Positions 3,955 to 54,968 of a DNA stretch of 64,000 nt are shown here, piece by piece. The stretch's first letter is position 1; each line of letters opens with the position of its first letter. The notes below the pieces were generated by a model. That model did no database searches. It saw only the letters and a program-made list of their open reading frames with translations, and was not told where the DNA came from. Origin of the DNA: Christensenella massiliensis (lineage in GTDB: Bacteria > Bacillota > Clostridia > Christensenellales > Christensenellaceae); the NCBI GenBank assembly GCA_900155415.1, contig LT700187.1:806001-870000 (forward strand), written 5' to 3'. A program made the position numbers and the translations under genes.

Positions 3955-4917
3955 ATGATCCGAAAAATGAAAGAAGCGGACGGTGCGGAGCTTTGCGCCA
4001 TCTGGCTTTCCGCAAATCTGGAGGCACACAGCTTCATTCCCGCGGAATATTGGCTGGGCAGCCTTGAAGCGGTGCGGCGCGCGCTGCCGCAGGCCGAGGT
4101 TTTCATTTATGAGAACAGCGGCCATATCGAGGGCTTCATCGGCATGAACGGCAGCTGCATCGAGGGGCTTTTCGTCCGCTCCGGCGCGCGGTCCCGCGGG
4201 GTCGGTGCCGCTCTTTTGGAGCATGTCAGGCAGAGAAAGCCGTATCTTACCCTGTATGTATACCAAAAAAACAGGAGGGCGGTGCGGTTCTATGAACGCA
4301 GCGGCTTTGAGAAGCGGTCTTTCGGCAAAGAGGAGGCCACCGGCGAGGAAGAATACCGTATGGAATGGCGCGGGCCGGCCTGTAAGGAGGGAATCATGGG
4401 CTATACAATCATTTCAGGAGATATCACGACACAGCATGCGGACGCGATCGTCAACGCGGCGAACACCTCTCTTCTCGGCGGAGGAGGCGTAGACGGCGCC
4501 ATCCACCGCGCTGCCGGGCCGGAGCTGCTCCGCGAATGCCGCACGCTTCACGGCTGCCGGACCGGAGAAGTAAAAATAACCAAGGGCTACCGCCTGCCCG
4601 CGCGGTATGTCATCCATACGCCCGGCCCGGTCTGGCGGGGCGGGAATGCGGGCGAGGACGAGCTGCTCGCGGGCAGCTATCGGAGCAGCCTGCGGCTTGC
4701 GGCGGAAAACGGTGCGAAAACCGTCGCTTTCCCCTCCATCAGCACGGGCGTCTACCGCTTCCCGCTGGAGCGGGCGGCGCGCATTGCTACGGAAACGGTC
4801 TGCGGCTTCCTGCGGGAGCACCCGGATATGAGCGTCACGATGGTCTGCTTTGACGAACGTACAAAAGCGGCCTACGAAAAGGCGCTTGCAGAATATGGAT
4901 CCCCGCCGAAAAAATAG
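3955..4917 (+). CDS. GNAT acetyltransferase fused to a macrodomain (ADP-ribose / O-acetyl-ADP-ribose type)
   Basis: 320 residues in one frame. Residues 1 to about 140 are a GNAT fold, with [20 protein letters not shown] as the acetyl-CoA loop and [11 protein letters not shown] near its end. Residues 148 to about 315 are a complete macrodomain: [47 protein letters not shown] and [14 protein letters not shown]. Macrodomains of this subtype hydrolyse O-acetyl-ADP-ribose or ADP-ribosyl esters. The linker CKEG is encoded by a strong Shine-Dalgarno, and an in-frame ATG lies at 4396 (residue 148), so a free macrodomain may also be made. The start at 3955 follows AAAGGAAAAAAGC. Confidence 0.9.
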
Positions 4918-5011
4918 AGCAGGTATAAAAAGGATACCGTTGCATCGTAAACTGGCATTCCAAAATGGGCATCGAAAAAAATCCAGCGTATAGAGCAGGC
5001 AAAATGAGAGG

Positions 5012-5047
5012 CGAAACAGACGCAGTTCGGAAAACAGCGTCTGTTTC
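5012..5047. terminator. Hairpin between convergent genes
   Basis: Perfect 11-bp stem GAAACAGACGC/GCGTCTGTTTC. It lies between the macrodomain gene and the convergent isomerase. No clear T-run on either side, so the terminator role is only likely. The rest of 4918-5175 shows nothing else. Confidence 0.45.
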
Positions 5048-5175
5048 AGTAGGTTAAGCTATCCTACGATTTCCCTTTATTTTTTCCTGCTTGGGAGTTC
5101 AGTGCACTAATGGACGGCCTTGATCTTGTCTATTATCCGTACATATACGATTTTGGAATCGCTGTTTTTTGCTTT

Positions 5176-6642
5176 TTAGCGAACTTGTTTAAATGGAATA
5201 TTCAGTGTCTTTGCGAGCTTCTTCAAAACGGAAGCATTGTGTCCTATGCTTAGAGAGAAATGATGGTTGATGCCCGAGCTGGACCAGTCCTCTACGAACG
5301 CGCCAATATCTCCTTCGCCGAAATATCCGCGTGTCATAGTGTTGCCATTTGCCGGTTTCGGTCCTTTCTGGCTTTCGCCTTCGGCAACTGAGAAAGAGTA
5401 ATTCCCGTCAATGTCGCTGGAAAGGCCAAGCATTGTTATGGGGCCTTCTTTCAGGCTGAAATCTACCGAAAGGCCTTCGCCTTTTTTGCCGTGAAAAGTT
5501 GTAAGCGCGCGCATCTGCGGTTTGCCGTCGCTGATGCGGATATCGTGCGGGCCATCATGGCCGACCATCTGTATTTTTTCTTCAAATATGGTGGGGCAAA
5601 ATTCCGCAAACGAACCGCCGCAGCCCAGACAGCTTGTAATATACATAGCGACACATGTTTTCATATCGGATTCGCCCGCAAAAGGAATTCCTGCGGAAAC
5701 AAGGAGCGAATTGCCTATTATCATACTGCACGCAACTTTTTCGTATTCGTTGTTAAGCCCTTCGTAATAGTAAGCAACTCCGGAAAGGTTGTTGTTGGAT
5801 ACTAGCTTATCCATGCCGACAGAAACACGAGCCGTCCAGTCGAGGTCTTCGTCCAGAATCTTTCTTGTCGTGGGATCATAGCTTGGATCCATAAATTCAA
5901 ATGTATCCCTTATCATTTTTATTTTATCTTTTACTTCTTTATCCGTCGCCGAATGTACATAATCCACAAACTCGCACATTTCTACCATTTTGACATGGAT
6001 GCCGAATGTGCGTTCTATCGTTGTGGGGTCAAAATTCATGTCAAGCATTCCTTCGTATGTGTGGCCAAGGTGTCCGAAGATTGATCCTTTCATGCATCTG
6101 AGAGCGGTTGCGACGCGGCACCATTCAGAAATATTTTTGGTAAAGCGGGCATCAAAGTCGGGAATAAGATAATGTCCGTATTCAAGACCGACCGGTTCGA
6201 TCCCACTGCGTGTCAGGGCATTGTAGGCTTCCGGAAGCGGGCAGGCGCCGCCGCCTGCGTGCGTCCAATATGTAGTCGCCTTGGAAACATCAAGAGACAT
6301 TTGATATCCTACGATAACAACCGGGCATCCTGCCGCTTTTATGCCCTGTACATATCTGCCGGAAGCAACGTATGCGCAGTTAAATTGAAAGAGAAGGTCT
6401 ATGTCTTCCGCCTTAAACATAAGTCCCGCTTGATAGCCGTCTTCCGTAGTATCTACAATAAAGTCTCCTGCCGCATTTGTATAGGCAACAACCTCTACGC
6501 CCTGGGATTCAAGCAGCTTTTTAAAATCCGCAGCATTTTTTATGAACTGCTCTTTCATGCCCGGAAACTGCGGCCAATACTCTTTATGCCCACATACCAT
6601 GAGCCCAACTTTGCCTTTTTTCTTTACTTCTTTGATATCCAT
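5176..6642 (-). CDS. L-fucose/L-arabinose isomerase family protein
   Basis: 488 residues, soluble. It matches the sugar ketol-isomerase superfamily (AraA/FucI-like) in overall length and in landmarks such as GLMVCGHKEYWPQFPG at the N-terminus, LFQFNCAYVASGRYVQGI, GHLGHTYEGMLDMNFDPT and NHHFSLSIGHN near the C-terminus. The exact aldose is not known; it is not a canonical AraA. The family binds Mn2+ through acidic and His residues, which I cannot assign safely here. GGAGGAG lies 6 bases before the ATG. It is divergent from an AraC regulator and near an ABC sugar importer, so it probably isomerises the imported sugar. The gene is more AT-rich than its left neighbours. Confidence 0.8.
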   Translation of the reverse strand: MDIKEVKKKGKVGLMVCGHKEYWPQFPGMKEQFIKNAADFKKLLESQGVEVVAYTNAAGDFIVDTTEDGYQAGLMFKAEDIDLLFQFNCAYVASGRYVQGIKAAGCPVVIVGYQMSLDVSKATTYWTHAGGGACPLPEAYNALTRSGIEPVGLEYGHYLIPDFDARFTKNISEWCRVATALRCMKGSIFGHLGHTYEGMLDMNFDPTTIERTFGIHVKMVEMCEFVDYVHSATDKEVKDKIKMIRDTFEFMDPSYDPTTRKILDEDLDWTARVSVGMDKLVSNNNLSGVAYYYEGLNNEYEKVACSMIIGNSLLVSAGIPFAGESDMKTCVAMYITSCLGCGGSFAEFCPTIFEEKIQMVGHDGPHDIRISDGKPQMRALTTFHGKKGEGLSVDFSLKEGPITMLGLSSDIDGNYSFSVAEGESQKGPKPANGNTMTRGYFGEGDIGAFVEDWSSSGINHHFSLSIGHNASVLKKLAKTLNIPFKQVR

Positions 6643-6749
6643 TTTTTCTCCTCCTTCATTTTTGGGTATCAGAAATATTACACTTTATTGCTATTTCTAA
6701 AGCGTTGCTTTTTCGTTGTGTAAAATTGACAGTTTTTTATGAAAACCCC

Positions 6750-6778
6750 TTGAACTAATCAATATTTTACTTTATAAT
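6750..6778 (+). promoter_or_regulatory. Sigma-A promoter of the AraC-type regulator
   Basis: TTGAAC (6750-6755), 17-base spacer, TATAAT (6773-6778). It lies about 75 bases before the ATG in the shared region between the isomerase and the regulator. Confidence 0.65.
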
Positions 6779-6853
6779 GTTATTATATCAAGTATAAATC
6801 TCTTATCAATTATTTAAATTGTGAGCTTATTACAATATTTTGCGGTAATAAAA

Positions 6854-7738
6854 ATGGATCATGATAAAATACACACCTTAACCAAAAATTATACAAAAGA
6901 TTGGTCTGAGGATTCTATCTGGATTATTAATACCCCCAGCGAGTTGGCACGAGAAGCGTTTTTCTATGTGCAGGAGATTGGAATGTTCCAATGTTTCTCT
7001 AATTATTATACAGAGCATGAGGGCATTGCATCTTTTCTTGTGATGCTTACGTTAGCCGGCGAGAGCAGCTATCGGTATCAAAATAATATCTACCGTTTGC
7101 GACCCGGAGATTTATTTTTCGTAGATTGTATGGAGTATCATTCTCTGCGTCCCCATGGTTCGGCGCGTTGGGACATGATATGGATTCAATTCAACGGCAT
7201 TGTCGCACAAAGTTATTACCAACAATTCCTAAGGCAAAAGACACCTGTTATCCATGTCGGTACCATGGAGCGGGTCTATCATTATTTAGCCGAGCTGATT
7301 CAAATCAACCAAGAAAGAAGCATTTATTCGGAATTAATCAGTTCCAAACTTATTACAGAGCTTCTGACTGAAATCCTGATCCAATCCGGGGTTGCTTATC
7401 CCATGAAAAATAGTATTCCCGAATATATTCAAGAAGCGATTAAAGAGATCGACACCCATTTTAAGGACAATTTGAGTCTGGATTATTTTGCCGAAACTTT
7501 AACGATCAGTAAATTTCATTTTCTTAAAGAATTCAAAAAATATACCGGCTTTACACCAAATAATTATCTCCGTATGACGCGCATCAACCATGCGAAAAAG
7601 CTACTTAGATGCACCAATATGAACGTTTATGAAATCGCGGAAAGCGCAGGGTTCCAGACTGTTGGTTATTTCATTAATACATTCAAAAAAATCGTCGGGA
7701 TGACGCCTCTCCAGTTCCGGCAGAAACATTCGTTATGA
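6854..7738 (+). CDS. AraC-family transcriptional regulator
   Basis: About 294 residues from the ATG at 6854. An in-frame GTG at 6821 would add 11 residues; neither has a good ribosome binding site. The N-terminal half is a cupin-like sugar-sensing domain (ESSYRYQNNIYRLRPGDLFF, then DCMEYHSLRPHGS). The C-terminal 100 residues are a double helix-turn-helix: LSLDYFAETLTISKFHFLKE, then VYEIAESAGFQTVGYFINTF and the signature GMTPLQFR. It is transcribed away from the isomerase and lies between it and the end of the importer operon. I infer local activation of sugar genes by the imported sugar. Confidence 0.9.
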   Translation: MDHDKIHTLTKNYTKDWSEDSIWIINTPSELAREAFFYVQEIGMFQCFSNYYTEHEGIASFLVMLTLAGESSYRYQNNIYRLRPGDLFFVDCMEYHSLRPHGSARWDMIWIQFNGIVAQSYYQQFLRQKTPVIHVGTMERVYHYLAELIQINQERSIYSELISSKLITELLTEILIQSGVAYPMKNSIPEYIQEAIKEIDTHFKDNLSLDYFAETLTISKFHFLKEFKKYTGFTPNNYLRMTRINHAKKLLRCTNMNVYEIAESAGFQTVGYFINTFKKIVGMTPLQFRQKHSL

Positions 7739-7823
7739 TTCGGAGTACAGGAAAGCGCCGATAAGGTTGCTTCACGTTTTTCAATTCATTTTTTCGTGTA
7801 TTCCCGATTTTGCTTATGCTTAA

Positions 7824-7864
7824 AAGGCAGCCTGCAGAATATTTGCTCTTCCGCAGACTGCCTT
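7824..7864. terminator. Bidirectional terminator between araC-type gene and importer operon
   Basis: Imperfect stem AAGGCAGcCTGC/GCAGaCTGCCTT. It is followed by T-rich sequence on both strands (CCATTTATTTTT on plus, TTTTAAG on minus). Confidence 0.65.
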
Positions 7865-7899
7865 CCATTTATTTTTGGGCCATCTGTAATATACTGAAT

Positions 7900-9006
7900 T
7901 TAGTATACATCTTTCCATTCAGCAATATTACTTGAATCAAACCGGAAAGGAGGCCCAAGGATAATTTCCGTGCCGCCGTCGCTCGCATCCACAACCGTAT
8001 ATTCGCCAAGTGTTCCTGCTTCAAATTTGTCGCCGGTTGCTCCCGTGATCGTGCCGTCGGTCAGCGCCATCGCCGTATATCCCGCAAGATATCCGAGATC
8101 CAACGGATTCCACAGGAACATATATTCGCAGACTCCATTGTCGATATACTCAGCCATTTCGGACGGAAGTCCAAGACCCGTCAGAGCAACTTTGCCGCCC
8201 AAATTTTTATCCGTCAGAACCTTGCCCGCCGCAGCGATTCCAACTGTCGTAGGCGCCACGATACATTTCAAGTCAGGATAGGACTGAAGCAACGCTTCCG
8301 TCTCAGATACGGATTTGTCACGCAGATCGTCACCGTAAGCAACCTTTACAAGCTCCATATCTTTATATTTCTCATCGCTTTCCATGATTTTCTGAAGCGC
8401 CTCAATCCATGCATTCTGATTTGTTGCCTGGCTCGTCGCTGAAAGGATCGCAAATTCGCCGGAGCCGCTGCACATCTCGTATGCCGTCTTCTGCTTGAAA
8501 AAAAAAAAAAGTTCCGAACCGGCCTGGTTTACGAACAACTCTCTCGACTGCGCGTTTACACCGGAATCGACTGCAATCACTTTAATCCCCGCCTGCATCG
8601 CTTTTGTCAAAGCCGGTTGCAGGGCATCAGGATCATTCGCAACTACGGTAATAGAATCAACCCCCTGCGCGATCAGTTCTTCGATGATCTGAATCTGGCC
8701 TTCCGCCGTCGGCTGATCCGGCGCCCTTAAAATTGCTTCCTGTCCGGCTTCCTTAACCGCATTTTCAAAGCCTTCCATTTCTTTCTCGCCATACGGGTTT
8801 CCCGTATTTTTGAACACTATCGCATGTTTACCGCTGCCCGTCGTTTCCGTGCCTGCGGAAGCCTCCGTACTGCTCTCAGCGCTTGCTTCTCCTGACTCCG
8901 TGCTGCTTTCCGGCACCTGCGAAGCTGTTTCCGCCGCCGGAGCGCAAGCTGCAAAGACAAACGCCGCGACGATTAACAAACATACTACCGTCATCCATTT
9001 TTTCAT
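7900..9006 (-). CDS. Sugar ABC transporter substrate-binding lipoprotein (RhaS/LsrB type); internal segment corrupted
   Basis: Type I periplasmic-binding fold of about 368 residues that captures a sugar at the cell surface for the permeases next to it. The start at 9006 is chosen because GAGGAGG lies 5 bases upstream and it opens the lipoprotein signal KKWMTVVCLLIVAAFVFAACA (lipobox AAC). The mature part has AIVFKNTGNPYGEKEMEGFE, APDQPTAEGQIQII, TVVANDPDALQPAL and EFAILSATSQATNQNAWIEA, resembling rhamnose and AI-2 binding proteins. Residues about 166-178 (FFFFKQKTAYEM) are not biological: they translate an Illumina adapter plus poly-A. The frame survives, but that stretch should be ignored. 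Last gene of the importer operon. Confidence 0.88.
   Translation of the reverse strand: MKKWMTVVCLLIVAAFVFAACAPAAETASQVPESSTESGEASAESSTEASAGTETTGSGKHAIVFKNTGNPYGEKEMEGFENAVKEAGQEAILRAPDQPTAEGQIQIIEELIAQGVDSITVVANDPDALQPALTKAMQAGIKVIAVDSGVNAQSRELFVNQAGSELFFFFKQKTAYEMCSGSGEFAILSATSQATNQNAWIEALQKIMESDEKYKDMELVKVAYGDDLRDKSVSETEALLQSYPDLKCIVAPTTVGIAAAGKVLTDKNLGGKVALTGLGLPSEMAEYIDNGVCEYMFLWNPLDLGYLAGYTAMALTDGTITGATGDKFEAGTLGEYTVVDASDGGTEIILGPPFRFDSSNIAEWKDVY
8474..8510 (+). other. Assembly artefact: Illumina P7 adapter read-through tail plus poly-A
   Basis: Positions 8474-8497 match, base for base, the 24-base reverse complement of the Illumina P7 flow-cell oligonucleotide (begins ATCTCGTATG, ends CTGCTTG). 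They are followed by 13 A residues, the usual signal past the end of a fragment. It sits inside a coding gene and gives the peptide FFFFKQKTAYEM. Confidence 0.97.
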
Positions 9007-9064
9007 TTTTTCCTCCTCGTTAATCATATTATTCTCATTTTTCCATTTGTATGGAAAAATTATT

Positions 9065-10090
9065 TTATTTTTTCGGCAGGGCTTTCGGTTTGTTAAGTAA
9101 AAAATTGGAGGCCAATACTGATCCAATCAGCAGAAGGCCGATGATAATCATCATAACCTGTGCCGAAATATTGATAAGCCCAAGACCATATCTCAGATAT
9201 CCTACGATAAATACCGCAAGAATCGCTCCAAGCATATTTCCTTTTCCCCCTGCTGTCGATACGCCGCCTAGCACAACCATGGCAATAACGTCCAGTTCAT
9301 AGCCCTGCGCTACATTTGGCCTCGTAGATGCCATGCGGGATGTAAGAAACAGTGCACATGCGCCCGCCATAAGACCCATAAGCGTAAAAATAATAATTTT
9401 ATTACGATTTACCTTGATTCCGGAATATCTGCTTGTTGTCTCATTGTTTCCCATTGCATAAACCTGCCGCCCAAATACGCTTTTATGCAGCAGCAACCCA
9501 AAAACTACGGCAAGGATAATAAACATTAGCAGTGAAAATGGAATCGGCCCAACATATCCCCAGCTTAAATACTGGAACCATTCCGGAAAGCCTCCTGAGG
9601 CTTGATCTTCCAGTATGATATAAGCGATTCCGCGATAAATCGTCATCGTTGCCAATGTGATAATCATGGAGGGAAGTTCCTTGCATTTTGCAATCAGAAT
9701 CCCGTTTATATAACCGCACCCAAGGCCTACTGCAAGACAGAGTACCATTGAAAGCTCCATCGGCATTCCTGCATTATAAGCTATTGCCATAATGACGGAG
9801 CACAAAGCTGCGGTTGATCCAACCGAGATATCTATCTCTCCCAGCAGGATAACAAAGACCATTGCCAGAACCATGAAGCCTTTGTCCATAAAATTCATCG
9901 TCGCGTCCAATACTTGTGTTCCGCGGAAATAATCCGATATCGAGCCATTGATGATTAGTATGACGACCAATATGATAACGAGCAGCCATTCCCACTGTAG
10001 AAAGAATTTTTTTGGATCCAACTTATGTTCCAAAACCGAACGATCCAATTCTACGTTTGTGCGTTTGTTTAAAGTAGCCATCTTGCTCAT
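9065..10090 (-). CDS. Sugar ABC transporter permease (RbsC/LsrD family)
   Basis: 341 residues, with a cytoplasmic N-terminus of about 30 residues and then about 9-10 membrane segments. Family landmark: GEIDISVGSTAALCSVIMA, the conserved permease loop near the first third, with VVLGGVSTAGGKGNMLGAIL near the C-terminus. It forms the channel with the second permease. Its start overlaps the end of that upstream permease gene by 4 bases (ATGA), and the binding-protein gene begins 58 bases after it, so all are one transcript. The exact sugar is unknown. Confidence 0.92.
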   Translation of the reverse strand: MSKMATLNKRTNVELDRSVLEHKLDPKKFFLQWEWLLVIILVVILIINGSISDYFRGTQVLDATMNFMDKGFMVLAMVFVILLGEIDISVGSTAALCSVIMAIAYNAGMPMELSMVLCLAVGLGCGYINGILIAKCKELPSMIITLATMTIYRGIAYIILEDQASGGFPEWFQYLSWGYVGPIPFSLLMFIILAVVFGLLLHKSVFGRQVYAMGNNETTSRYSGIKVNRNKIIIFTLMGLMAGACALFLTSRMASTRPNVAQGYELDVIAMVVLGGVSTAGGKGNMLGAILAVFIVGYLRYGLGLINISAQVMMIIIGLLLIGSVLASNFLLNKPKALPKK

Positions 10091-44871: not shown

Positions 44872-44888
44872 TATGAAATTAGGAGTCG
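44872..44888 (+). repeat. attL core, 17-bp direct repeat
   Basis: TATGAAATTAGGAGTCG, identical to 53870-53886. It is the first codons of ychF. Confidence 0.85.
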
Positions 44889-44941
44889 AGGGAACTTGGC
44901 CTGTTTTCATAACTCCATATAAATCCATAAATTGCCCATAA
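44873..44941 (+). pseudogene. Residual ychF 5' end read into the element
   Basis: The start MKLGV is that of YchF, then the frame runs into element DNA (EGTWPVFITPYKSINCP) and stops. 22 codons, with the native promoter and ribosome binding site still in place. No function expected. Confidence 0.7.
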
Positions 44942-45007
44942 AGCTTGATACCAAGCCACTTTTAGGAAAACCTAAAACTATATAACTTCATATTCTTCTA
45001 TGTATCT

Positions 45008-45036
45008 CAATGCGGAAATGGCGTAAAAATAGCGTA
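45008..45036 (+). repeat. Integrase arm-type repeat, left copy
   Basis: CAATGCG-AAATGGCGTAAAAAT-GCGTA type, 27 of 29 bases identical to 53777-53805 in the same orientation. A related inverted pair (TTTTACGCCAAAATTTACGCC) lies at 45155-45177. Confidence 0.6.
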
Positions 45037-45086
45037 GAGGAAAATTTGCAAACACAAACTTAAGGGCATACTACTACATAAAAATT

Positions 45087-45130
45087 AACCACCATCAACT
45101 GGCCAAAATTCAGCTATGTTGATGGTGGTT
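45087..45130. terminator. Terminator at the end of the restriction operon
   Basis: Perfect 13-bp stem AACCACCATCAAC/GTTGATGGTGGTT with an 18-base loop, T-rich on both sides. It would also stop transcription from the stranded ychF promoter. Between it and 45393 I see the inverted arm repeats and only weak small frames (for example a 60-codon minus-strand frame ending at 45169), not called. Confidence 0.65.
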
Positions 45131-45393
45131 GTTTCGTTTTTGGATGCTATAAATTTTTACGCCAAAATTTACGCCATATGCTCACCAAGCCAGTTTTCTA
45201 CTGCTGTGTTTCGGGGTGATTTTAGGTATAAAATGTCATTGGGAACGCTTTTGAGGGACGAACGACAAGAGGAGTCTATATTACAAGTTGCAAAGCCCGT
45301 GTGCACTTCAGGTTTCTCATTGAATAGGCAAGGGTATGTCTTAAATGACATCCATATAGCATTACAACCATATCTATCACATGTCAGTCTACC

Positions 45394-45867
45394 TCAAACC
45401 CAATTTCCATTTACAGTCTCATTAGTTCTGTCTACCGTAAAATGCAGAATCCTATGATCTGTCAGTTCACTATGTAGTGCATCAAATGTATCCCCGCCAA
45501 CAATGATTGCCTGAAAATTCGGGATGCTGGAACAATCTATGCCTAATCGAGAAATATTTGATAATATCATCTCTCGCAATTGTTTCTGTGCACTTTCATT
45601 ATTAAGAAAATACTGCAAAGATTGATAGTCTGATTTCCGCTCATTATTCCCTTTAAAAAGCTCTCGGCTTTTCACTTTCGCTTCACCTACAAGAATGGTG
45701 TCGTGGCGAAAGGCAATAATATCTGGAGCTTTGCGGTAATCTCCTATTTGAAACCAATAGCGGCCTTGTTGATTTCCGCTTAAAGCAAGAATCAGAAAGT
45801 CGTGCTTTGATAAATACTTACCGAAAGATGACAGCAAATCGTCTTCTCTGTAAGGTTCCGTTGTCAT
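45394..45867 (-). CDS. Small PD-(D/E)XK nuclease-like protein of the restriction operon
   Basis: 157 residues. The motif APDIIAF (D49) ... ILVGEAKVKSREL (E62-A-K64) fits the PD-(D/E)XK catalytic core with 12 residues between D and E. Start ATG overlaps the stop of the 405-residue gene by 4 bases, so it is made together with it and with the methyltransferase. I infer the catalytic subunit of a type II-like restriction enzyme; homing or repair nuclease are alternatives. Last gene before the operon terminator. Confidence 0.72.
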   Translation of the reverse strand: MTTEPYREDDLLSSFGKYLSKHDFLILALSGNQQGRYWFQIGDYRKAPDIIAFRHDTILVGEAKVKSRELFKGNNERKSDYQSLQYFLNNESAQKQLREMILSNISRLGIDCSSIPNFQAIIVGGDTFDALHSELTDHRILHFTVDRTNETVNGNWV

Positions 45868-47081
45868 GAAAAATAAACCAATCCTTCCTTAAAGACAATT
45901 AGGTCTGCTGTAAAGGCATAAACTCTGAGAAAGTTTTTCATTACTTGCGCACACCCTTCTGTTAAGAACATAGTGTACTCGGGGATATTTCTGATTTCAG
46001 ATAAATCATTATGCTGTAGTGGGCATCCATTCCACACCTTACTATGGTAACAAGAAAAATCTTCAAAGCTTAACATAGATAAATCAATAATTAGATTTGA
46101 ATCTCGTTCATAAGGTGTTTTTCCCAATCTACAAAAGATGTAGTCAAATGCAAGCGGTTGTCCGAGGTAAGGATCCGCACCTTTGTCTTTAATGCGTTTA
46201 TTGAGACTATCTCGAAGTTGATCTGGTGTTTTCCCCCGCTCTTCAGCAATTGGTGTAAAAATAAGATTTCTAGTTCGTTTGACAATTCTGTCGGGAATGT
46301 TTCCGGGTAATGTGATTCCTTTCCCGCCCAACCATGTTTGAATTTCTGTCCAAGACAAAAAATCTCCCGATGTCATATTTTTGGTTAACCTGGCAAAATC
46401 ATTAATTTGCGGAATGGGAGAATATGCTCTTCTGCGCATGTCATCTCGTAATTCAACAATCATTCGTTCTTGGAATAGTAGACTGATGGGTGTTCCATTA
46501 ATTGCCGAAATTAACACTTTATTTAAAAAGAACATCGTTTTCTTCATGGGTTCGGAATCATGAACAGGCAGGTCTGCATATGTTGTGTCAATATTCAATG
46601 TGCTTTGGTCTGAAGATTCCCATTCAGCAATATAGAACGGTGTTCTGTGGATTTCCATTACCCTATCATATGCGTAGAAAAATGCAGAATCTAATTTACT
46701 TGGAAAACTGGGATGTTGTGACAAATCAAACGGCAAGACATAAGCGCCGGGGACACCAATCTGTGCGCATCCCACAAGATTGTTGAAGCGTTGCAACCAA
46801 TGATCCCTTGCAGGAACATGGTTAGTTAACTCGAAAGCAAAAACAGGGTGGATAGGCAGGATGCCATTATCATAACAGATAACTACATCTGGTTTAGCAA
46901 AGAACAGCAGCCTCCGGAGCTCATCTGGCAATTCTGCAAAACTAACGGTGTGATTGTCAGGAAGGTTCCGTATTTCGCTGGTTGCTCTTCCATCATTAAC
47001 CATATCTTCGATGTTAGAATAATGGTTAATATATTCGGCAAAGCGCTTTGTCTTGTGGTGGTAAATAATAAAATGGTTCAT
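45864..47081 (-). CDS. Nuclease-fold-like subunit of the restriction operon, family not identified
   Basis: 405 residues, soluble, no membrane helix. The segment AKPDVVICYDNG (D65) ... HPVFAFELTNH (E84-L-T86) resembles a PD-(D/E)XK core whose lysine is replaced by threonine, followed by HWLQRFNNLVGCAQIGVPG. The C-terminal half (RTRNLIFTPIAEERGKTP, GQPLAFDYIFCRLG) is unassigned and could recognise DNA. Joined by 4-base ATGA overlaps to the methyltransferase before it and the small nuclease after it. I infer a restriction subunit: either the cutting enzyme with a variant site or a specificity partner of the small protein. Confidence 0.6.
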   Translation of the reverse strand: MNHFIIYHHKTKRFAEYINHYSNIEDMVNDGRATSEIRNLPDNHTVSFAELPDELRRLLFFAKPDVVICYDNGILPIHPVFAFELTNHVPARDHWLQRFNNLVGCAQIGVPGAYVLPFDLSQHPSFPSKLDSAFFYAYDRVMEIHRTPFYIAEWESSDQSTLNIDTTYADLPVHDSEPMKKTMFFLNKVLISAINGTPISLLFQERMIVELRDDMRRRAYSPIPQINDFARLTKNMTSGDFLSWTEIQTWLGGKGITLPGNIPDRIVKRTRNLIFTPIAEERGKTPDQLRDSLNKRIKDKGADPYLGQPLAFDYIFCRLGKTPYERDSNLIIDLSMLSFEDFSCYHSKVWNGCPLQHNDLSEIRNIPEYTMFLTEGCAQVMKNFLRVYAFTADLIVFKEGLVYFS

Positions 47082-49552
47082 TTGGCAGCCTCCTTTCTAA
47101 GTACAGCAACGCCATCGTATTTAATGATATCAGATGTTTTGTGGCGAGTAATCTTTAGAACATTTTTTACAATTTCGTAGTGGAATGTCCTTTCGTAAAT
47201 AAGGCCGATATCTTCGAGAAGTTCTACAAGAATACCAAAGGTATCAATCGGTACACCTGTAATGGTATTTGTTCCTGCAACTAAAACAAACTTGCCGCCA
47301 TCTTTTAAGGTATTTGCTGCCTGAGAAAAAACATCCCTCATCTCGGAAAAATATTTAAACACAATATAACTCCGCTTTGGCTCGTTGTTGAAGATTTCCT
47401 TCAGTGCAGAATTTAGTGCTTTTCCTAGTACAGATTCACCATCAAATTGATGCAGCGAAGAATAATCTTTTGCATATACACGCTCTGTTCCAATAAATTT
47501 CGTTTGGAACTCGATGCTCTCTTTCGGATCAACAAGCGATAGTAGGAATGTTTCATAGCGGTTATTCATTGCATAATTCATTGCGTTGATATACGGGGGT
47601 GAGGTAACAATTAAATCTACTTCTTCTTGCAGAAGGTGAGTAGTTAAGTTCAACGCGCTATCATTAATAATGATCGCTTCGGGAGTTGATGTGCCAATAG
47701 TTTTCCCTGAGGACATGATCTCCTTGTATTTCACCAATGCTTTTTTCATTTCTGTATAAGGCAAAGAAACTCCTTTTAAAACCTTTCTCTGATCGCGTTT
47801 AACCTTAATCTGGCTTTCATCTAAAAAGCTACAGGGCTTAATGATTGTAGATAATACAGCCATGTAATAGTCTCGGAGTGCGTCATTGAAGTTTTGCAAT
47901 ATATAGTCTCGTATGGTTTCAATTTCTAACAGAGCTTCTTCGCTAAACCAAAACTGATCATTTTCAAAGAACAAGTCTCTCTTGGCTTTTATTGAATCGT
48001 CACTGGATAAAAAACGCAAAAATTCTTTTGTTGTATCAGAAATCTGCACTACATCCAGGTATGAGGACTTTGCTCTGGCAAGGAGGCATGCGTAGGGAGA
48101 GATATCAAAACCGATACTACGCCTACCATTTAATCGAGCTTCAGTCGTTGTTGTTCCGCAACCATTAAAAGGGTCTAAAATGATGTCATTGGGAGCACTG
48201 TATTGTTGAATAGCCCATGCAGGCAAGTCTGGAATATACTTAGCTGGATATTTTCCCAAACCATGAAGCTTACTATATTCGTTTCCGCTTTTCAGAGAAA
48301 CAATGGATTTGTCTTTGGGTGTTGAACAAGATAAATCGACCTCATGGCAAGTAGAGGTTGGCTTCGCAATTACTGCAGCCTCACAGGAAATCATGGTTTT
48401 GGGTTTTACAGGCTCAAAAACAAGAATATGTTGCATCTTCTTTTCGTCTGCACTGTACTTTTTCTCACGGAAACTTCTAGAAATGCTTTCCATTGTGTAC
48501 TTTGAACTATCGACAAAAGCAAAACCAGATTTTTCAGCCATTTCTCTAAAACATGTTTCCATATCGAAAAACTCACCGGAAATAATAGAATCACCAACAA
48601 AAAAGTACGCGAGTTTATTAGGCTTTAGCATGCGGGAAACGTTCTGCATTACAGGGATCATTCTTTGTTCAAAAATAGAAATCGGAGCCTTCTTGCTAGA
48701 ATGTTCATGCCGAGAGCCAATTTCATCATCCTGAACCTTTTTTATATCATATCCTAGCCATGCCATGCGCCACTTATGATAAAGATAATAATCATAAGAG
48801 TTTGCGTAAGGGGGGGAGGTAATCACAATATCCACACTGCTATCCGGAACAAGAGCGCTTGAAATCTTGTCTGTACTGCCATGATATACGATGGGGGTAT
48901 TTTTAATAACAGTTCGCATTTCTGATAGTTGCACAATTCGCTTGGCTTCTTGGCGAAGCTTCCTGAGAAAAGTGGTAATTACCGATCCAGCTTCAAAGTT
49001 TTTTTCAATTGCTGCATACCTGGTATTACTTTCTTGGTTGCTTACATTAACAATGATGCTGCTAAAGATACAAAGCAAGAAATTCTGCAAATTCCCTTGA
49101 GAATTATCAAGCAGAAATTGTTTGAGCCACGATAGTTCATTGATTACACTTGCTTGGAACCAATGATTGAGATTTTGAATTTTAGGAATCCATGTTGCTT
49201 GGAAACGGAATGTAGCACAATCTATTATTTCTAATTGATCAATAACAATTATCAGCTGCTGTATTTCCTCTGTTGTTAAGGCAGTAGTTTTTGCTCTAGA
49301 TATCAATGTTGCAATTGGATTAGAATCGATGCCAATACTTTTCCTGCCAGCAACACATGCTTCGAGCAAAGTGGTGCCACTTCCGCAGAATGGATCTAGA
49401 ACAATGTTGCGTTCTTTTGTGCACTCACGAATAATTTCTCTAGGAAGTTTAGGAATAAATTTTGCAGGGTATGGATGGATTCCATGAGTATAAGCCGTAG
49501 AATCTGTACTGTCTATACTAGTAAACTGAGTGAGTTTTTCAATTAATTTCAT
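47078..49552 (-). CDS. Tandem N4/N6 DNA methyltransferase (two catalytic domains)
   Basis: 824 residues from the ATG at 49552 (AGGTGA 4 bases upstream). Two complete amino-methyltransferase domains. First: HGIHPYPAKFIPKLPREI, SAM loop VLDPFCGSGTTLLEA (about 53) and catalytic VITSPPYANSYDYYL. Second: GLGKYPAKYIPDLPAW, ILDPFNGCGTTTTEA (about 490) and LIVTSPPYINAMNYA. Each domain keeps the order SAM loop then catalytic motif. Two domains in one chain usually methylate the two strands of an asymmetric site, as in type IIS systems. First gene of a three-gene operon with two nuclease-like genes. A weak promoter TTCATG-17-TATAAA lies just upstream. Confidence 0.9.
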   Translation of the reverse strand: MKLIEKLTQFTSIDSTDSTAYTHGIHPYPAKFIPKLPREIIRECTKERNIVLDPFCGSGTTLLEACVAGRKSIGIDSNPIATLISRAKTTALTTEEIQQLIIVIDQLEIIDCATFRFQATWIPKIQNLNHWFQASVINELSWLKQFLLDNSQGNLQNFLLCIFSSIIVNVSNQESNTRYAAIEKNFEAGSVITTFLRKLRQEAKRIVQLSEMRTVIKNTPIVYHGSTDKISSALVPDSSVDIVITSPPYANSYDYYLYHKWRMAWLGYDIKKVQDDEIGSRHEHSSKKAPISIFEQRMIPVMQNVSRMLKPNKLAYFFVGDSIISGEFFDMETCFREMAEKSGFAFVDSSKYTMESISRSFREKKYSADEKKMQHILVFEPVKPKTMISCEAAVIAKPTSTCHEVDLSCSTPKDKSIVSLKSGNEYSKLHGLGKYPAKYIPDLPAWAIQQYSAPNDIILDPFNGCGTTTTEARLNGRRSIGFDISPYACLLARAKSSYLDVVQISDTTKEFLRFLSSDDSIKAKRDLFFENDQFWFSEEALLEIETIRDYILQNFNDALRDYYMAVLSTIIKPCSFLDESQIKVKRDQRKVLKGVSLPYTEMKKALVKYKEIMSSGKTIGTSTPEAIIINDSALNLTTHLLQEEVDLIVTSPPYINAMNYAMNNRYETFLLSLVDPKESIEFQTKFIGTERVYAKDYSSLHQFDGESVLGKALNSALKEIFNNEPKRSYIVFKYFSEMRDVFSQAANTLKDGGKFVLVAGTNTITGVPIDTFGILVELLEDIGLIYERTFHYEIVKNVLKITRHKTSDIIKYDGVAVLRKEAAK

Positions 49553-49661
49553 TTTATCACCTATGTGTTTTATATATGTTAATGATTGTTGCATGAATCA
49601 GCTGTAATTCTCAGCGGTTTTCGGCTATTATCCACTCATAAAGCCTATGCCTCTGAAATAA

Positions 49662-50483
49662 CTATCCAACCAAAGTCCTCACTGCATTCATAATTTGCTC
49701 GTAGGTAATATCCTGCGCGTAAGCAAATTGCTTGCGGTACTTATCCCACATAGTGCGCAGCTCCGGGCTTACCTCTATGTTGTGCAATATCCCCGGTACA
49801 TCGGCGATCTGCTCGACAGTGCCACGGTGCTCGGCAGTTGCTTTCAGCGCATCGGCAAATACCGCTTTGTCAAATTTCTGCGTAGTCGCCAGTATGTAGG
49901 CATCGTAGAAATCTCTAGGGCGGGTATTGAACACGCCGCGGCGCAGGATGGTTTCCACCTTTTCGGCCATGACGGTTTCGATATTATAAGCCCAAAGTTC
50001 GTAGGATTCATCGTCGAAAATCTCGGTGAAGTTGTACTGCACTGCATGAGGGGTAATTGCATCACCGGTAGATACATCAATGCTCAAGGGCGTAACCATT
50101 GTATCGAATTTAGCAGTCAGTGCAACACGGTAGCCGCCGTAAATGTCATCCTCCCGAATGGGAGAAATATTGCCGATTGCAAAGGTCACATCATCCTCAA
50201 AAGGAATGGCACACACCTGCTCCAAGGCACCGCGAATTGCTTTCGGTGTGAGGGGAAGATTTTTTAGTGTGGTGTCCAAATCCATGGTAGCGCGGTTGTC
50301 GAGGCCTACAATAGCGGCTACTAGCATACCGCCTTTCAGCACGAATTTGTCCTTGTATTCCGATGCGGCAAGCCGCACCAGCAATCTTTCAAACATATAG
50401 TTCTGCAAAATCACCTGGGCAGGGATGTTTTTCTGCTTGGCGATATTTCGGATTTTTGCCTTCAGGCTCATTGCCTTGCTCAT
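49662..50483 (-). CDS. abiEii: AbiEii-type nucleotidyltransferase toxin
   Basis: 273 residues from the ATG at 50483 (GGAGGTG upstream, overlapping the antitoxin stop by 4 bases). Type IV toxin-antitoxin family: KAKIRNIAKQKNIPAQVIL, the nucleotidyltransferase core FVLKGGMLVAAIVG and RATMDLDTTLKN with the DxD, EKVETILRRGVFNTRPRDFY near the end. It is expected to inactivate RNAs, known for relatives to add nucleotides to tRNA, and cause abortive infection. Own promoter with its antitoxin. Confidence 0.92.
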   Translation of the reverse strand: MSKAMSLKAKIRNIAKQKNIPAQVILQNYMFERLLVRLAASEYKDKFVLKGGMLVAAIVGLDNRATMDLDTTLKNLPLTPKAIRGALEQVCAIPFEDDVTFAIGNISPIREDDIYGGYRVALTAKFDTMVTPLSIDVSTGDAITPHAVQYNFTEIFDDESYELWAYNIETVMAEKVETILRRGVFNTRPRDFYDAYILATTQKFDKAVFADALKATAEHRGTVEQIADVPGILHNIEVSPELRTMWDKYRKQFAYAQDITYEQIMNAVRTLVG

Positions 50484-51073
50484 AAAAGCACCTCCAAATA
50501 CTGCCGCAATACATTGGCCACACGCAGTTGTTTTGCGTAAGAGTTTAGCTTGTTTAAGTCCTTTTTGGGACTTGCGGCATACAATTTTAGAGCCATCAGG
50601 AAGGTCTCTGTGCCCAGCTTGTTGCGGCTGCGGATACAATCGCATACAGTGCGCTCCAGGTCGTAACAGGGCACAAGATTGCCTGCAGGGGTTTTCAACT
50701 TGGTTTTACCAAGCTCGAATAGTTCGGGTTTAATGTAATAAATTTTACATTCCTCTTGTATGGCTTTTGACGGTACTTTTCCAGATGGTGCAGTAATGGT
50801 ATGCTCAAACGGCGTGCGGTCTGAAATTCCATGCAAAAAAAGTGCTGTTTCATGGGAAAAAACAAACAATTTTGAGCGCATACTTATGGATAACAATTCG
50901 TCTTGCATATCATCGCTCAAAATGTATTGACCTCGAGTAATCCGCTGAAGCTTATCGTCTATGCATAGTTTTGATAATATTGCTCTGGAAATACCATATT
51001 TTTCTGCTTCTTTATTATTTATAATTCCGCCATTTTTTTTGGCAATCAATTTAAGTGTATCTAAGCAATTCAT
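50480..51073 (-). CDS. abiEi: AbiEi-type antitoxin / autorepressor
   Basis: 197 residues. N-terminal winged helix (GIINNKEAEKYGISRAILSK, RITRGQYILSDD), then the AbiEi C-terminal domain (VFSHETALFLHGISDRTPFE, DLERTVCDCIRSRNKLGTE). Neutralises AbiEii and represses the operon. Starts 31 bases after a perfect consensus promoter. The ribosome binding site is weak, which is unusual for an antitoxin (start preceded by GGTGGTGTTTGA). Confidence 0.92.
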   Translation of the reverse strand: MNCLDTLKLIAKKNGGIINNKEAEKYGISRAILSKLCIDDKLQRITRGQYILSDDMQDELLSISMRSKLFVFSHETALFLHGISDRTPFEHTITAPSGKVPSKAIQEECKIYYIKPELFELGKTKLKTPAGNLVPCYDLERTVCDCIRSRNKLGTETFLMALKLYAASPKKDLNKLNSYAKQLRVANVLRQYLEVLL

Positions 51074-51103
51074 TCAAACACCACCCAAGACTTTTGTGAA
51101 AAC

Positions 51104-51132
51104 ATTATATCCCAAATTACGATTTTTGTCAA
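51104..51132 (-). promoter_or_regulatory. Consensus promoter of abiEi-abiEii
   Basis: Minus strand TTGACA (51127-51132), 17-base spacer, TATAAT (51104-51109). A short inverted repeat GTACagaGTAC lies at about 51134-51144, a possible AbiEi operator. Confidence 0.85.
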
Positions 51133-51144
51133 CGTACAGAGTAC

Positions 51145-52255
51145 AAATCTTCTAACTACAAATTTGATATTATGACCTTTGTATTGAATGCACTTTGTTG
51201 TTTATTTGGGTCTTCGTTGGCCATATTGGCGGAGCACATTTGAAACGCAATAAGTTTTACTTAAGTTGCGGCACATTTTAAAAGGTACATTTTAGTAGTT
51301 GGGAGGCAATTTTGGTGTTAATGTTGGAGTACAAATTGGGGTCGATAACGGTGTCAATATTGGTGTCACTCGTCTATGTGGAATAAAGACAAAAGAAAAA
51401 CAATTTGTACTTCTTAAAGACTGAAAACCGTGTCTTTTTAAGGTAACCCCAATTTTGCAACTTCATTTCTAAAAACACGCTTCCCCTTTAGGATTTATGA
51501 TAGGAAAATTATAATAAAATACCTGTTCGCAAGGGGTTAAAGAGGGGTTCGCTCCATATAAAACCAAAATAAACGCCGAAAAAACGTAGTTCACCTATGA
51601 TTTACCCTTTTTTATGGCTTTCTATCATCAAATCATAAAAGATGAACCTCTAATCGAAATGATAAGATTTCGGGAGGTTTTTTGATATGTTCTTCGCTTT
51701 CGGAAATGCCCTTCTTTCAAAAAATCAAGCTATGATTTTCCATTATCAATGACCCCAATTTTTAGTCTGAAATCTTCGCTTTAAAATGACAAAGAAAATG
51801 ATATTCTTTTTCGTTATGATAAGAGGCAAATCCCCCCTGCTTTCGAAATGAGAAAGCAGGGCTTGTCATACCGAAAATGTTTTTTCGCATCATTCCGAAA
51901 AGAGGGTTCGGCAGTATTTGAGAATGAACACCATAAATCTTTGATAAATCTAAAATAAATCTATATGACTTTTTCAAATGACAGTCATAATCATCATTTC
52001 AAAATGATGGGCATATTGTTCCCATTAGCAAATGATACCCGTCACAAGCCGTAGGCGTGCCCACGGCCGAATATCTCCGCACGCAAGCGTAACAATTGTC
52101 CTTCAAAGTAAATCGTCACACAATGCAATCTGCACCGCAAATCTAACCTGAACCGAAACGGTGAGGGACTGGACAGCGGTGCGGATTTGCTTTTTTCTTG
52201 CCAAAATATTCTCCCGTACACATATTCCCTTCATCATAAGCAAAGGAGGGCGAAT
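51145..52255. other. Long mostly non-coding part of the element
   Basis: About 1.1 kb, AT-rich. Near 51306-51424 a short plus-strand frame without a start site reads GGNFGVNVGVQIGVDNGVNI and ends KEKQFVLLKD, a Gly-Val-Asn repeat that looks like the tail of a lost protein. CCCCAATTTT occurs at about 51445 and 51753. A terminator lies at 51645-51679. Just before xis is a possible second terminator (GCAAATC about 52136 pairing GATTTGC about 52183, then TTTTTTC). Small frames elsewhere are not supported. Confidence 0.5.
51645..51679 (+). terminator. Terminator inside the element
   Basis: Nested stem AACCTC...CGAAAT/ATTTCG...GAGGTT, then TTTTTTGAT on the plus strand. Confidence 0.6.
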
Positions 52256-52462
52256 ATGTCTGAAAAATATGAATCTGTACCAATCCACGAAAAAGTTACT
52301 TTGACAATCAAAGAGGCGGCAGAGTACAGCAATATTGGCATTAACAAAATTGATTCTATGCTGCGATCGCCGAATTGTTCGTTTGTACTTTTCGTCGGCA
52401 CAAAGAAATTGGTTAAGCGAAAAGAGTTTGAGCAGTTCATCAGTCAAGCTCTGATTATCTAA
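52256..52462 (+). CDS. xis: Excisionase (Tn916 Xis-like)
   Basis: 68 residues from the ATG at 52256 (AAAGGAGGG upstream). MerR/Xis-type winged helix: YESVPIHEKVTLTIKEAAEY, SNIGINKIDSMLR, FVGTKKLVKRKEFEQFI. Recombination directionality factor that helps the neighbouring integrase excise the element. Lies 116 bases before int, as in Tn916-like elements. Confidence 0.88.
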   Translation: MSEKYESVPIHEKVTLTIKEAAEYSNIGINKIDSMLRSPNCSFVLFVGTKKLVKRKEFEQFISQALII

Positions 52463-52501
52463 CCGAAACTTCAAGAAATTTATAAAATTAACAATTATCA
52501 C

Positions 52502-52530
52502 TTGAGAAAGAGCGTACTATGTGATATAAT
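52502..52530 (+). promoter_or_regulatory. Promoter of the integrase gene
   Basis: TTGAGA (52502-52507), 17-base spacer, TATAAT (52525-52530). Confidence 0.75.
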
Positions 52531-52578
52531 TATAGTGTAGTAGTATACTCTTTTCTTAAGCAGGAAAAGAGCATATCA

Positions 52579-53769
52579 TTGGGAAAAAATCTCAAAGGCA
52601 AAGAAATAGGTAAAGGCATTTACCAAAGAAAGGACGGTTTATACCACGCCCGGTTTGTTGACAAAGCGGGCAAACGACATGAAAAGTATTTCAATACGAT
52701 TCCCGAAGCACGCAACTGGATTGAAGAATCCAAATACGCTGATAAGCACGATGGCGTTTTTGTTCCAACCGAAACGACGGTTGATGAATGGTTTGAATTT
52801 TGGATTGAAAATATTGTTGGGGACTTAGCTCCCAACACGCTTCGCAACTACCGTGAGCGATATAAGTTCAATATCCAGCCAATCATCGGTAAAATGGCGA
52901 TTGCGAATGTGAAACCTATGCACTGCAAAAAGGTGTTACTGAAAATGGATGAAGAATACGCAGGCTCTACCATCCGTCAGACCTACATCACAATGGGTAC
53001 AATGCTCAAAGCGGCTTTAATGAATGATTTGATACCCAAGCACCCAATGAACGGTGTGCGGTACACCAAGCCCGTTAGAGCAAAGGATGACATTCACTTC
53101 CTTACCCGTGAGGAACAACGGATTTTTCTTCAGGTAGCCGAACGCTCTCATAATTACAATCAATACGCCCTCATCCTTGAAGCAGGCTTACGAACAGGCG
53201 AATTGATAGGACTTACTTGGGGTGCGATTGATTTTGAAAAGCGAACGCTGACGGTAAACAAAACATTAGAATACAGACACAGGCAAGTATATTGGCGAGC
53301 AGGGCCGCCGAAAACAGAACACAGCTATCGCACCATACCTCTTATAGACCGTGCATACGAAATCTTGAAAGAGCTTTGGGATAACCGTGGTAATAGGAAA
53401 GAGTCCCCTCTTCTGTCGCAAACTCTGGAATACATCGACAGGTGAACAGGTGCAACCTCACAGCTTGTTATGAAAGACCTTGTGTTCATAAATTGGCGTA
53501 CAGGGCTACCTGCGAAAAACAGTTCCTATGACACACACCTTTACAAGCTGTGTGATGAGGCAGGCATTAAGCATTTTTGTATGCATGCTTTACGCCATAC
53601 CTACGCCACAAGAGCAATCGAGGCAGATATGCAACCAAAGGTATTGCAAAAGCTGTTAGGCCATGCCAGTATCAAAACCACAATGGATCGGTATGTCCAT
53701 GTAACAACCGATTCGATGGATCAAGCAATAAAGCAATTTGAAAACAATCGGGTTTTGGATGTATCTTAA
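52579..53769 (+). pseudogene. int: Tn916-type tyrosine integrase interrupted by an in-frame TGA
   Basis: 396 sense codons in one frame with a TGA at 53443-53445, codon 289. Upstream part: AP2-like arm-binding domain GIYQRKDGLYHARFVDKAGK, core-binding SAM-like domain, catalytic Arg in LEAGLRTGELIGLTW. Downstream part: MHALRHTYATRAIEADM, LLGHASIKTTMDRY with the nucleophilic Tyr. The break falls in the catalytic domain (YIDR-stop-TGATSQL), so the two halves alone cannot work unless the stop is read through or is a sequencing error. Starts at a TTG with weak AGGAAAAGAG upstream. Confidence 0.85.
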
Positions 53770-53776
53770 TAAAAAT

Positions 53777-53805
53777 CAATGCGAAAATGGCGTAAAAATG
53801 GCGTA
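53777..53805 (+). repeat. Integrase arm-type repeat, right copy
   Basis: 27 of 29 bases identical to 45008-45036 and in the same orientation; just after the int stop codon, 64 bases inside attR. Confidence 0.6.
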
Positions 53806-53869
53806 AAGCCAAAAGCGCCAAGTCTGAAAAAGCCTGTAAAATAAGGATTTTTAAAGGAGATTTGAAATA

Positions 53870-53886
53870 TATGAAATTAGGAGTCG
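53870..53886 (+). repeat. attR core, 17-bp direct repeat
   Basis: TATGAAATTAGGAGTCG; restores the ychF start codon and first residues. Confidence 0.85.
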
Positions 53887-54968
53887 TCGGATTGCCGAAT
53901 GTCGGCAAAAGCACATTGTTCAATGCTCTCACGCAGGCGGGCGCGCAGAGCGCAAATTATCCGTTTTGTACCATAGAGCCGAATTTCGGCATCGTATCCG
54001 TGCCGGACGCACGTATGGATTATCTCGCGGAAATCTACCACCCGCAGAAATTCACGCCCGCGACCATCGAGTTCGTGGATATCGCCGGGCTCGTGAAGGG
54101 TGCGAGCAAGGGCGAGGGCCTCGGCAATAAATTTTTATCCCACATCCGTGAGGTGGACGCCATCATCGAGGTGGTGCGCTGCTTCGAGGACGACAACATC
54201 ACCCATGTGGACGGCAGCATTGACCCTCTGCGCGACGTGACGACCATCAACTATGAGCTGATCTTTGCGGATATGGACGCCGTGCAGAAGCGTCTCGACA
54301 AGGCGGTCAAAATGCAGAAAACGGGCGATAAAAAATGGAAGCTCGAGGCCGGCGTCTGCGAAACGGTCCTTGCGGAGCTCGAAAAAGGCAATTTTGCGCG
54401 CAACATCGAATTTGACGAGGAACAGGCGGAGATCATGCGCTCCATGTTCCTGCTGACGGACAAGCCTATTATTTATGTAGGCAACATCGCGGAAGATCAG
54501 GTGGGCAGGAACGATCTGCCTCTTTTGCAGCCGCTGCTCCGGTATGCGGACGAGCACAAAAGCGAGGTCGTGACCATTTCCGCAAAGATAGAAGAAGACC
54601 TCTCCGAAATGGACGAGGAGGAAAAGGCCCTGTTCATCGAGGAGCTTGGCATCGGGGAATCCGGTCTTTCCAAGCTGATCAAAAAATCCTATTCGCTTCT
54701 CGGCCTCATCAGCTACCTGACAGCCGGGGAAAAGGAAGTACGCGCGTGGACGATCACCAAGGGAACCAAGGCGCCGCAGGCCGCTGGCAAGATCCACAGC
54801 GATTTTGAGCGCGGCTTCATCAAAGCGGAGGTCATCGCCTTCGATACGCTGAAAGACGAATGCGGCGGAGATATGCAGGCCGCCAAGGAAAAGGGCCTCA
54901 TCCGGCAGGAGGGCAAGGAATACGTCATACAGGACGGCGACGTGGTGCTGTTCCGGTTCAATGTCTGA
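53871..54968 (+). CDS. ychF: Redox-regulated ATPase / GTPase YchF (Obg-like)
   Basis: 365 residues, full family length. P-loop [20 protein letters not shown] at the very N-terminus, [19 protein letters not shown], and the C-terminal TGS domain [20 protein letters not shown]. Universal ribosome-associated ATPase. Its coding sequence is intact, but the element ends at its ATG; the AAAGGAG ribosome binding site 11 bases upstream is element DNA, a long spacing. Transcription must come from the element or read-through from int. No good promoter is evident in the last 100 bases of the element. Confidence 0.96.

Follow-up and report, generated by a model that had tools for sequence, protein, structure and literature searches.

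Within a stretch of 64,000 nucleotides from the genome of Christensenella massiliensis (contig LT700187.1, positions 806,001 to 870,000; hereafter the window), three adjacent genes on the minus strand encode a methyltransferase with two catalytic halves (M) and two proteins with nuclease motifs, a larger one (L) and a smaller one (S). The question raised by this locus is whether the three genes form a defence system of a new kind, as proposed in a preliminary description, or a variant of restriction-modification that is already known. We estimate a probability of about 0.85 that M-L-S is a restriction-modification system of Type II with the Type IIT layout, similar to BtsI and BsrDI. That layout combines a large nicking subunit, a small subunit for the second strand and two methyltransferases, which in some systems are joined, and it corresponds to the predicted set in the window. 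By its layout, its motifs and the predicted fold of L, the system would accordingly be a new and rather diverged example of a known layout and no new kind of defence.

Gene Arrangement and Conservation

The three open reading frames (ORFs; coordinates in Table 1) are read in the order M, L, S and are joined by two 4-base ATGA stop/start overlaps, which bears out the earlier treatment of the 824-, 405- and 157-residue proteins as one unit. An in-frame ATG further upstream, at 49594, would extend M to 838 amino acids (aa). The 824-aa form is preferred, since AGGTGA lies just upstream of its start and M begins at the same residue in two relatives, with MKLIDKL in locus L003 and MELIERL in locus L002. 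Both were returned, as the only distinct loci, when genome contigs were scanned with L; they belong to metagenome-assembled genomes (MAGs) of the Oscillospiraceae (L003) and Lachnospiraceae (L002), and both carry M, L and S in the order of the window. The 4-base overlap of L and S is present in both, whereas that of M and L is not universal, with M-L gaps of 15 bases in L002 and 1 base in L003. If translation is coupled at the ATGA overlaps, L and S would be made in step, with M ahead of them.

In all six intact loci (window, L002, L003, L004, L005 and L009), L directly precedes an S-type ORF, and two subunits of unequal mass (46.9 and 18.1 kDa in the window) are encoded together. This count excludes a decayed copy in genome G553 and a remote relative in genome G816 (L011/L016). 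Co-occurrence outside this locus is supported as well, with two further complete M-L-S loci and L plus S in three more.

Relative to the window, the proteins of L002 are 60% (M), 72% (L) and 43% (S) identical, those of L003 73, 89, and 59%, respectively. Between window and L003, M and L have reached saturation at their synonymous sites, and the synonymous divergence (dS) of S is 1.58, while the nonsynonymous divergence (dN) is lowest in L (0.079), followed by M (0.205) and S (0.283). Overall, synonymous sites were saturated in 11 of the 15 pairwise comparisons with the proteins conserved, which indicates that M, L and S are selected for function; due to the same saturation, ratios of the dN/dS type are only rough. 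Judged from the sequences, chance ORFs are excluded for all three genes.

The Putative Large Subunit

L carries a PD-(D/E)XK core consisting of P64, D65, E84 and T86. It has to be regarded as a variant, as previously described, because a threonine occupies the position two residues past E84 where lysine is usual. All four residues are invariant across five aligned sequences; the sixth, of L009, keeps D, E and T and lacks P, and D and E are hence conserved in all six intact homologues. Residues 53-116 are predicted to fold as helix-strand-strand-helix-strand, the element order of the PD-(D/E)XK core, and the acidic residues fall on strands of it.

A structure model of L was built from a 4-sequence alignment (mean predicted local distance difference test, pLDDT, 65.5). 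Its comparison with the PDB by Foldseek gave four matches with an expectation value (E) of at most 0.001, all of them BsmI (entries 9f38, 9ezd, 9ez7 and 9ez5; E 3.7e-7 to 3.4e-6, probability 1.00), and the fifth-ranked match had an E of only 0.14. Moreover, all six intact L proteins match the PADLOC profile PDLC03392, named 'Type II nicking endonuclease' by the profile itself, in the catalytic region (E 1e-8 to 3e-6). Searches with this profile in 101 genomes and in 398 genomes matched the window's own gene alone, and none of 14 control genomes contained a match. A search of a viral fold library retrieved nothing at E<=0.001, the best match being an ERCC4-type nuclease domain (0.019). The kinship with a known enzyme that characterizes the large subunit of a Type IIT system was thus found by fold (BsmI) and by profile (PDLC03392), and not by a sequence match in the PDB. 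Together with the described Type IIT layout, these two matches of L leave the proposal of an undescribed defence system unsupported.

Residues 303-330, in the C-terminal half of L, form a block (Table 1) that ranks among the best-conserved regions of the family; most of it is retained in the remote relative L016, which lacks the acidic residues.

The Putative Small Subunit

The PD-(D/E)XK core of S, comprising P48, D49, E62 and K64, is intact, in agreement with the preliminary description. It is invariant in five aligned sequences, and the same residues occur in L009. The model of S features the helix-strand order of this fold with low confidence (pLDDT 63.8). In the Pfam scan of the L003 protein, the Hjc resolvase family ranks second after an unrelated family. 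At the level of motifs, two different candidate catalytic centres consequently reside on two different subunits and are conserved in the relatives. According to the preliminary description, its proposal would be refuted if the pair matched a restriction enzyme already characterised; such a match was obtained for L by its fold, while S corresponds to known enzymes only by architecture and motif.

The Methyltransferase

M had been described as containing two full catalytic domains, as would be expected for an asymmetric site, and both domains were confirmed. The first half features motif I (DPFCGSGT) at residue 53 and motif IV (TSPPYAN) at residue 245, the second half DPFNGCGT at 460 and TSPPYIN at 650, so that motif I precedes motif IV in both. 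The halves align to each other with 29% identity over 266 aa (E 2.6e-31), and near-complete PADLOC MTase_II profiles fall on them separately (PDLC03364 with its best stretch at 15-347, PDLC03322 at 415-795). The two methyltransferase activities of a Type IIT system, which may be separate or joined, are therefore represented by two complete halves of M.

The best PDB sequence match of M is the N4-cytosine methyltransferase of PvuII (E 1.3e-7), covering one motif region only. TSPPY is commoner in N4-cytosine methyltransferases. The TSPPY motifs point to N4-methylcytosine as the likely product, and N6-methyladenine would be possible. On plasmids, relatives of M occur in 64 records, all below 60% identity. 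In the four contexts viewed, their neighbours are annotated as hypothetical or as HNH endonuclease genes, and in three of them two adjacent methyltransferase genes lie at or beside the match. Because of such neighbours, M alone does not identify the type of the system.

Relatives and Possible Exchange of the Methyltransferase

Besides the window's own copy, class-level searches (391 genomes) found L in genomes G050 and G129, and a phylum-level search (398 genomes) found it in G553 and G816. Three scans of viral contigs with L returned one and the same contig (L009), and the viral-contig scans with S gave no match. In G050 (L004/L014), the order is C5-methyltransferase, L, S and a second C5-methyltransferase. 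In G129 (L005/L015), L forms an in-frame fusion with a C5-methyltransferase and is followed by S on a contig of 7.3 kb; the fusion protein of 817 aa occupies positions 1695-4148 of L015, with the small subunit next, and no second methyltransferase was recognised among the ORFs of at least 120 aa on this contig. The IMG/VR viral contig L009 contains an operon of C5-methyltransferase, L and S at 4766-7664 (Pfam DNA_methylase, E 5.8e-64). Altogether, L-S is accompanied by a tandem aminomethyltransferase in three loci and by a C5-methyltransferase in the other three.

The newest point of this analysis is the apparent exchange of methyltransferase chemistry by the nuclease pair. L-S might tentatively be seen as a portable module for cutting two strands which swaps its partner methyltransferase wholesale, with the one fusion representing a C5-methyltransferase-nickase chain with a separate small subunit, albeit this picture is rather doubtful at present. 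If it is true, a single C5 enzyme guarding L-S would imply either that the site contains a symmetric core which is methylated, or that methylation of one strand is enough for protection. The six loci allow testing how a nuclease pair changes its methyltransferase chemistry and yet matches specificity.

The remaining copies depart from this pattern. In G553, the match to L is distributed between two frames, and the ORFs of at least 80 aa listed beside it include none of the S type. G816 encodes a genuine, if distant, homologue of L (hhalign E 5.5e-28), which features threonine at both acidic catalytic positions and gave no match to PDLC03392; no methyltransferase was recognised among the listed ORFs of at least 150 aa around it. 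In L016, this relative of 560 aa (6995-9221) lies behind a transposase-like gene and the gene of a 185-aa protein that has an EAK motif; the L-like protein and its 185-aa neighbour perhaps form a repurposed pair. This relative, together with the departure of L itself from the canonical lysine, would suit an undescribed system in which L and S act other than by site-specific cleavage, for instance as a nuclease that depends on modification or acts abortively, with M as its guard. Such a system is improbable, since a methyltransferase is adjacent in six of six intact loci, all of which keep the D and E of L, and since the predicted fold of L is BsmI-like and its profile match is to a nicking endonuclease.

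Two further candidates were dropped as weak, namely G384 (L006, E 5.8e-4), which is absent from the profile search matches in the 391 class genomes, and G846 (L012, E 9.6e-4), where the match lies inside an aminotransferase-like frame.

The M-L-S genes are rare in the genomes searched. The genome of the window contains a single copy of L, and profile searches at the level of the order (151 genomes) and of the family (18 genomes) returned this copy alone. By tblastn, L of the window, L004 and L009 found nothing at E<=0.01 in a plasmid collection, and L of the window and L009 found nothing at the same threshold in a phage collection. The literature searches made, none of which was aimed at the locus by name, turned up no printed description of the locus or of the L family.

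Proposed Mechanism and Its Weighing

In the proposed mechanism, L would bind an asymmetric site and nick one strand by means of its D65/E84 centre, while S, held by L, would cut the other strand by means of its D49/E62/K64 centre. Together, these cuts would break both strands of the DNA, within the site or beside it. The two methyltransferases of M, which presumably modify one strand of the site each, would protect the DNA of the host.

Several points weigh against the assignment to the Type IIT layout. Concerning L, searches of the PDB by sequence, single and profile-based, including one segment each of L009 and L004, revealed no significant relative. The superposition with BsmI is loose (template modelling score by query 0.43-0.47, root-mean-square deviation about 9 A, 10-12% identity), as expected from a model with the mean pLDDT given above, and the pLDDT falls below 50 at residues 222-233, 297-314 and 342-390; the fold model on which the link to BsmI relies is thus of moderate confidence. 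The match to PDLC03392 identifies L through the label of the profile and not through its source members, and with T86 at the lysine position the catalytic competence of L is a prediction. Concerning S, the Hjc resolvase family is listed for all five proteins scanned with Pfam at E 0.007-0.089, below the family cut-off. Sequence searches of the PDB, single and profile-based, gave no significant match, with Hjc chains at E 0.077-0.18 in the profile search ranking below unrelated chains at 0.025, and the fold search with the S model yielded no match at E<=0.001. In addition, one methyltransferase only is present in the listed stretches of L015 and L009 (two in L014), and a lone C5-methyltransferase in these two loci sits awkwardly with an asymmetric site. 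Finally, the likeness to BtsI is one of layout, motifs and mass, and that to BsrDI one of layout, neither being a likeness of directly compared sequences.

With the Type IIT assignment, no new class of defence is opened. The locus would add a diverged and rare branch to a small group of practical use, the heterodimeric restriction enzymes; in this group, the large subunit can serve as a natural strand-specific nicking enzyme.

The Mobile Element

The restriction system is located on a 9.0-kb integrative element (44872-53891), which is inserted precisely at the start of ychF and carries a second defence cargo, the AbiEi/AbiEii pair (Table 1). In five of five other genomes of the genus, the insertion site is empty: the flanking genes are neighbours there, roughly 140-200 bases apart as matched, vs. 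about 9.1 kb here, and the DNA of these congeners aligns on either side of the element and not within it. The G+C content is 39.8% in the element and 53.9% in the rest of the window. The system of L003 likewise lies less than about 5 kb from an integrase frame and from genes that, judged from their translations, read as mobilisation and replication proteins.

Just inside the ends of the element, a direct repeat of 38 nucleotides (nt) with 87% identity occurs (45007-45044 and 53776-53813), which possibly represents arm sites of the integrase. Past the in-frame stop of the integrase gene, integrase-like sequence resumes in the same frame.

This interrupted integrase and the visibly decayed locus of G553 would be consistent with a decayed or modification-only locus as well, in which M is active and L-S inactive. 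The frames of L and S are open in the window, though, and the dN of L against L003 is the lowest of the three genes, which makes decay of the pair very improbable, the least probable of the explanations considered here.

Table 1. Features of the M-L-S locus and of the element that carries it (positions in the window).
Feature	Position	Strand	Description	Evidence
S	45394-45867	minus	ORF, 157 aa, 18.1 kDa; putative small endonuclease subunit, PD-(D/E)XK core, weakly Hjc-like	Pfam Hjc E 0.0089, below its cut-off
L	45864-47081	minus	ORF, 405 aa, 46.9 kDa; putative large endonuclease subunit, variant PD-(D/E)XK core, predicted BsmI-like fold	PDLC03392 E 2.7e-6; Foldseek E 3.7e-7
M	47078-49552	minus	ORF, 824 aa; tandem aminomethyltransferase	PF01555 E 5.6e-46; PADLOC MTase_II
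M-L overlap	47078-47081	minus	ATGA stop/start overlap	sequence
L-S overlap	45864-45867	minus	ATGA stop/start overlap	sequence
Conserved block of L	46092-46175	minus	residues 303-330, DPYxG(x5)DY(x3)RxGxT(x3)R(x2)NL	alignments of L homologues
Left end repeat	44872-44893	plus	22 nt, 91% identical to right; repeats first ychF codons	
Right end repeat	53870-53891	plus	22 nt, at ychF start	
AbiEii-type toxin	49662-50645	minus	nucleotidyltransferase, separate from restriction system	PF08843 E 2.9e-45; PADLOC
AbiEi-type antitoxin	50480-51073	minus		PDLC02225 E 2.2e-68; Pfam AbiEi_4 below cut-off
Tyrosine integrase	52579-53445	plus	interrupted by in-frame stop	PF14659, PF00589

Comparison With Known Systems

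BslI comprises three genes with two endonuclease subunits and a large aminomethyltransferase, in the same number and order as in the window. A BslI-like system, i.e., an alpha2-beta2 heterotetramer acting on a palindromic interrupted site, is therefore worth weighing, all the more as a review describes BslI as a heterotetramer (alpha2:beta2) that is unusual among Type IIP enzymes (PMC4081073). The same source lists it among the enzymes that need zinc for Cys4 motifs (PMC4081073). Such motifs were not seen in L, which lacks a CxxC pair and has C317 as the sole invariant cysteine column in the five-sequence alignment, and the fold match of L is to BsmI. With its palindromic site as a further difference from the putative asymmetric one, BslI is an unlikely model for the locus.

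The Type IIT layout, on the other hand, is already described (PMC4081073), which speaks against the view of the preliminary description that this set has no known counterpart. In such enzymes, recognition of the whole site and cleavage of one strand fall to the larger subunit, cleavage of the second strand falls to the smaller one, and two methyltransferases are generally present, in some systems joined in one chain; BtsI, BsrDI and BspD6I are named as enzymes of this layout (PMC4081073). BspD6I/BstNBI combines a nicking subunit of 604 aa with a subunit of 186 aa (PMC4081073), whereas L has 405 aa, and no PDB chain matched it by sequence.

The predicted fold of L is closest to BsmI. BsmI is a single-chain enzyme with two centres that belongs to the Type IIT group, and the PDB titles, which name top- and bottom-nicking mutants, are consistent with this. 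Its one chain of about 670 residues contrasts with the two proteins in the window, and L does not match it by sequence.

In layout, BtsI and BsrDI are the nearest counterparts. BsrDI, a Type IIT heterodimer, follows the division of labour given above, with site recognition and the cut of one strand in its large subunit and the opposite cut in its small one (PMC4081073). BtsI, with the site GCAGTG(2/0), is classified as Type IIS/IIT and consists of the subunits BtsIA and BtsIB with the methyltransferases M1.BtsI and M2.BtsI (PMC2909958). Division of the published concentrations results in masses of about 18.6 kDa for BtsIA and 37.8 kDa for BtsIB (PMC2909958). BtsIA, at about 18-19 kDa and inactive alone, resembles S in size (PMC2909958), and L is about 9 kDa larger than BtsIB. 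Two methyltransferase activities would be shared as well, M1 and M2 being separate there and one double chain here. BtsIB has its own PD...E centre, with P57, D58 and E72 as the catalytic residues (PMC2909958), near residues 57-72; L likewise has a PD...E motif of its own. The window's L has five more residues between D65 and E84, and the 14-residue distance of BtsIB from D to E recurs, in much the same positions, in L004 (D60-E74), L005 (D59-E73) and L009 (D63-E77).

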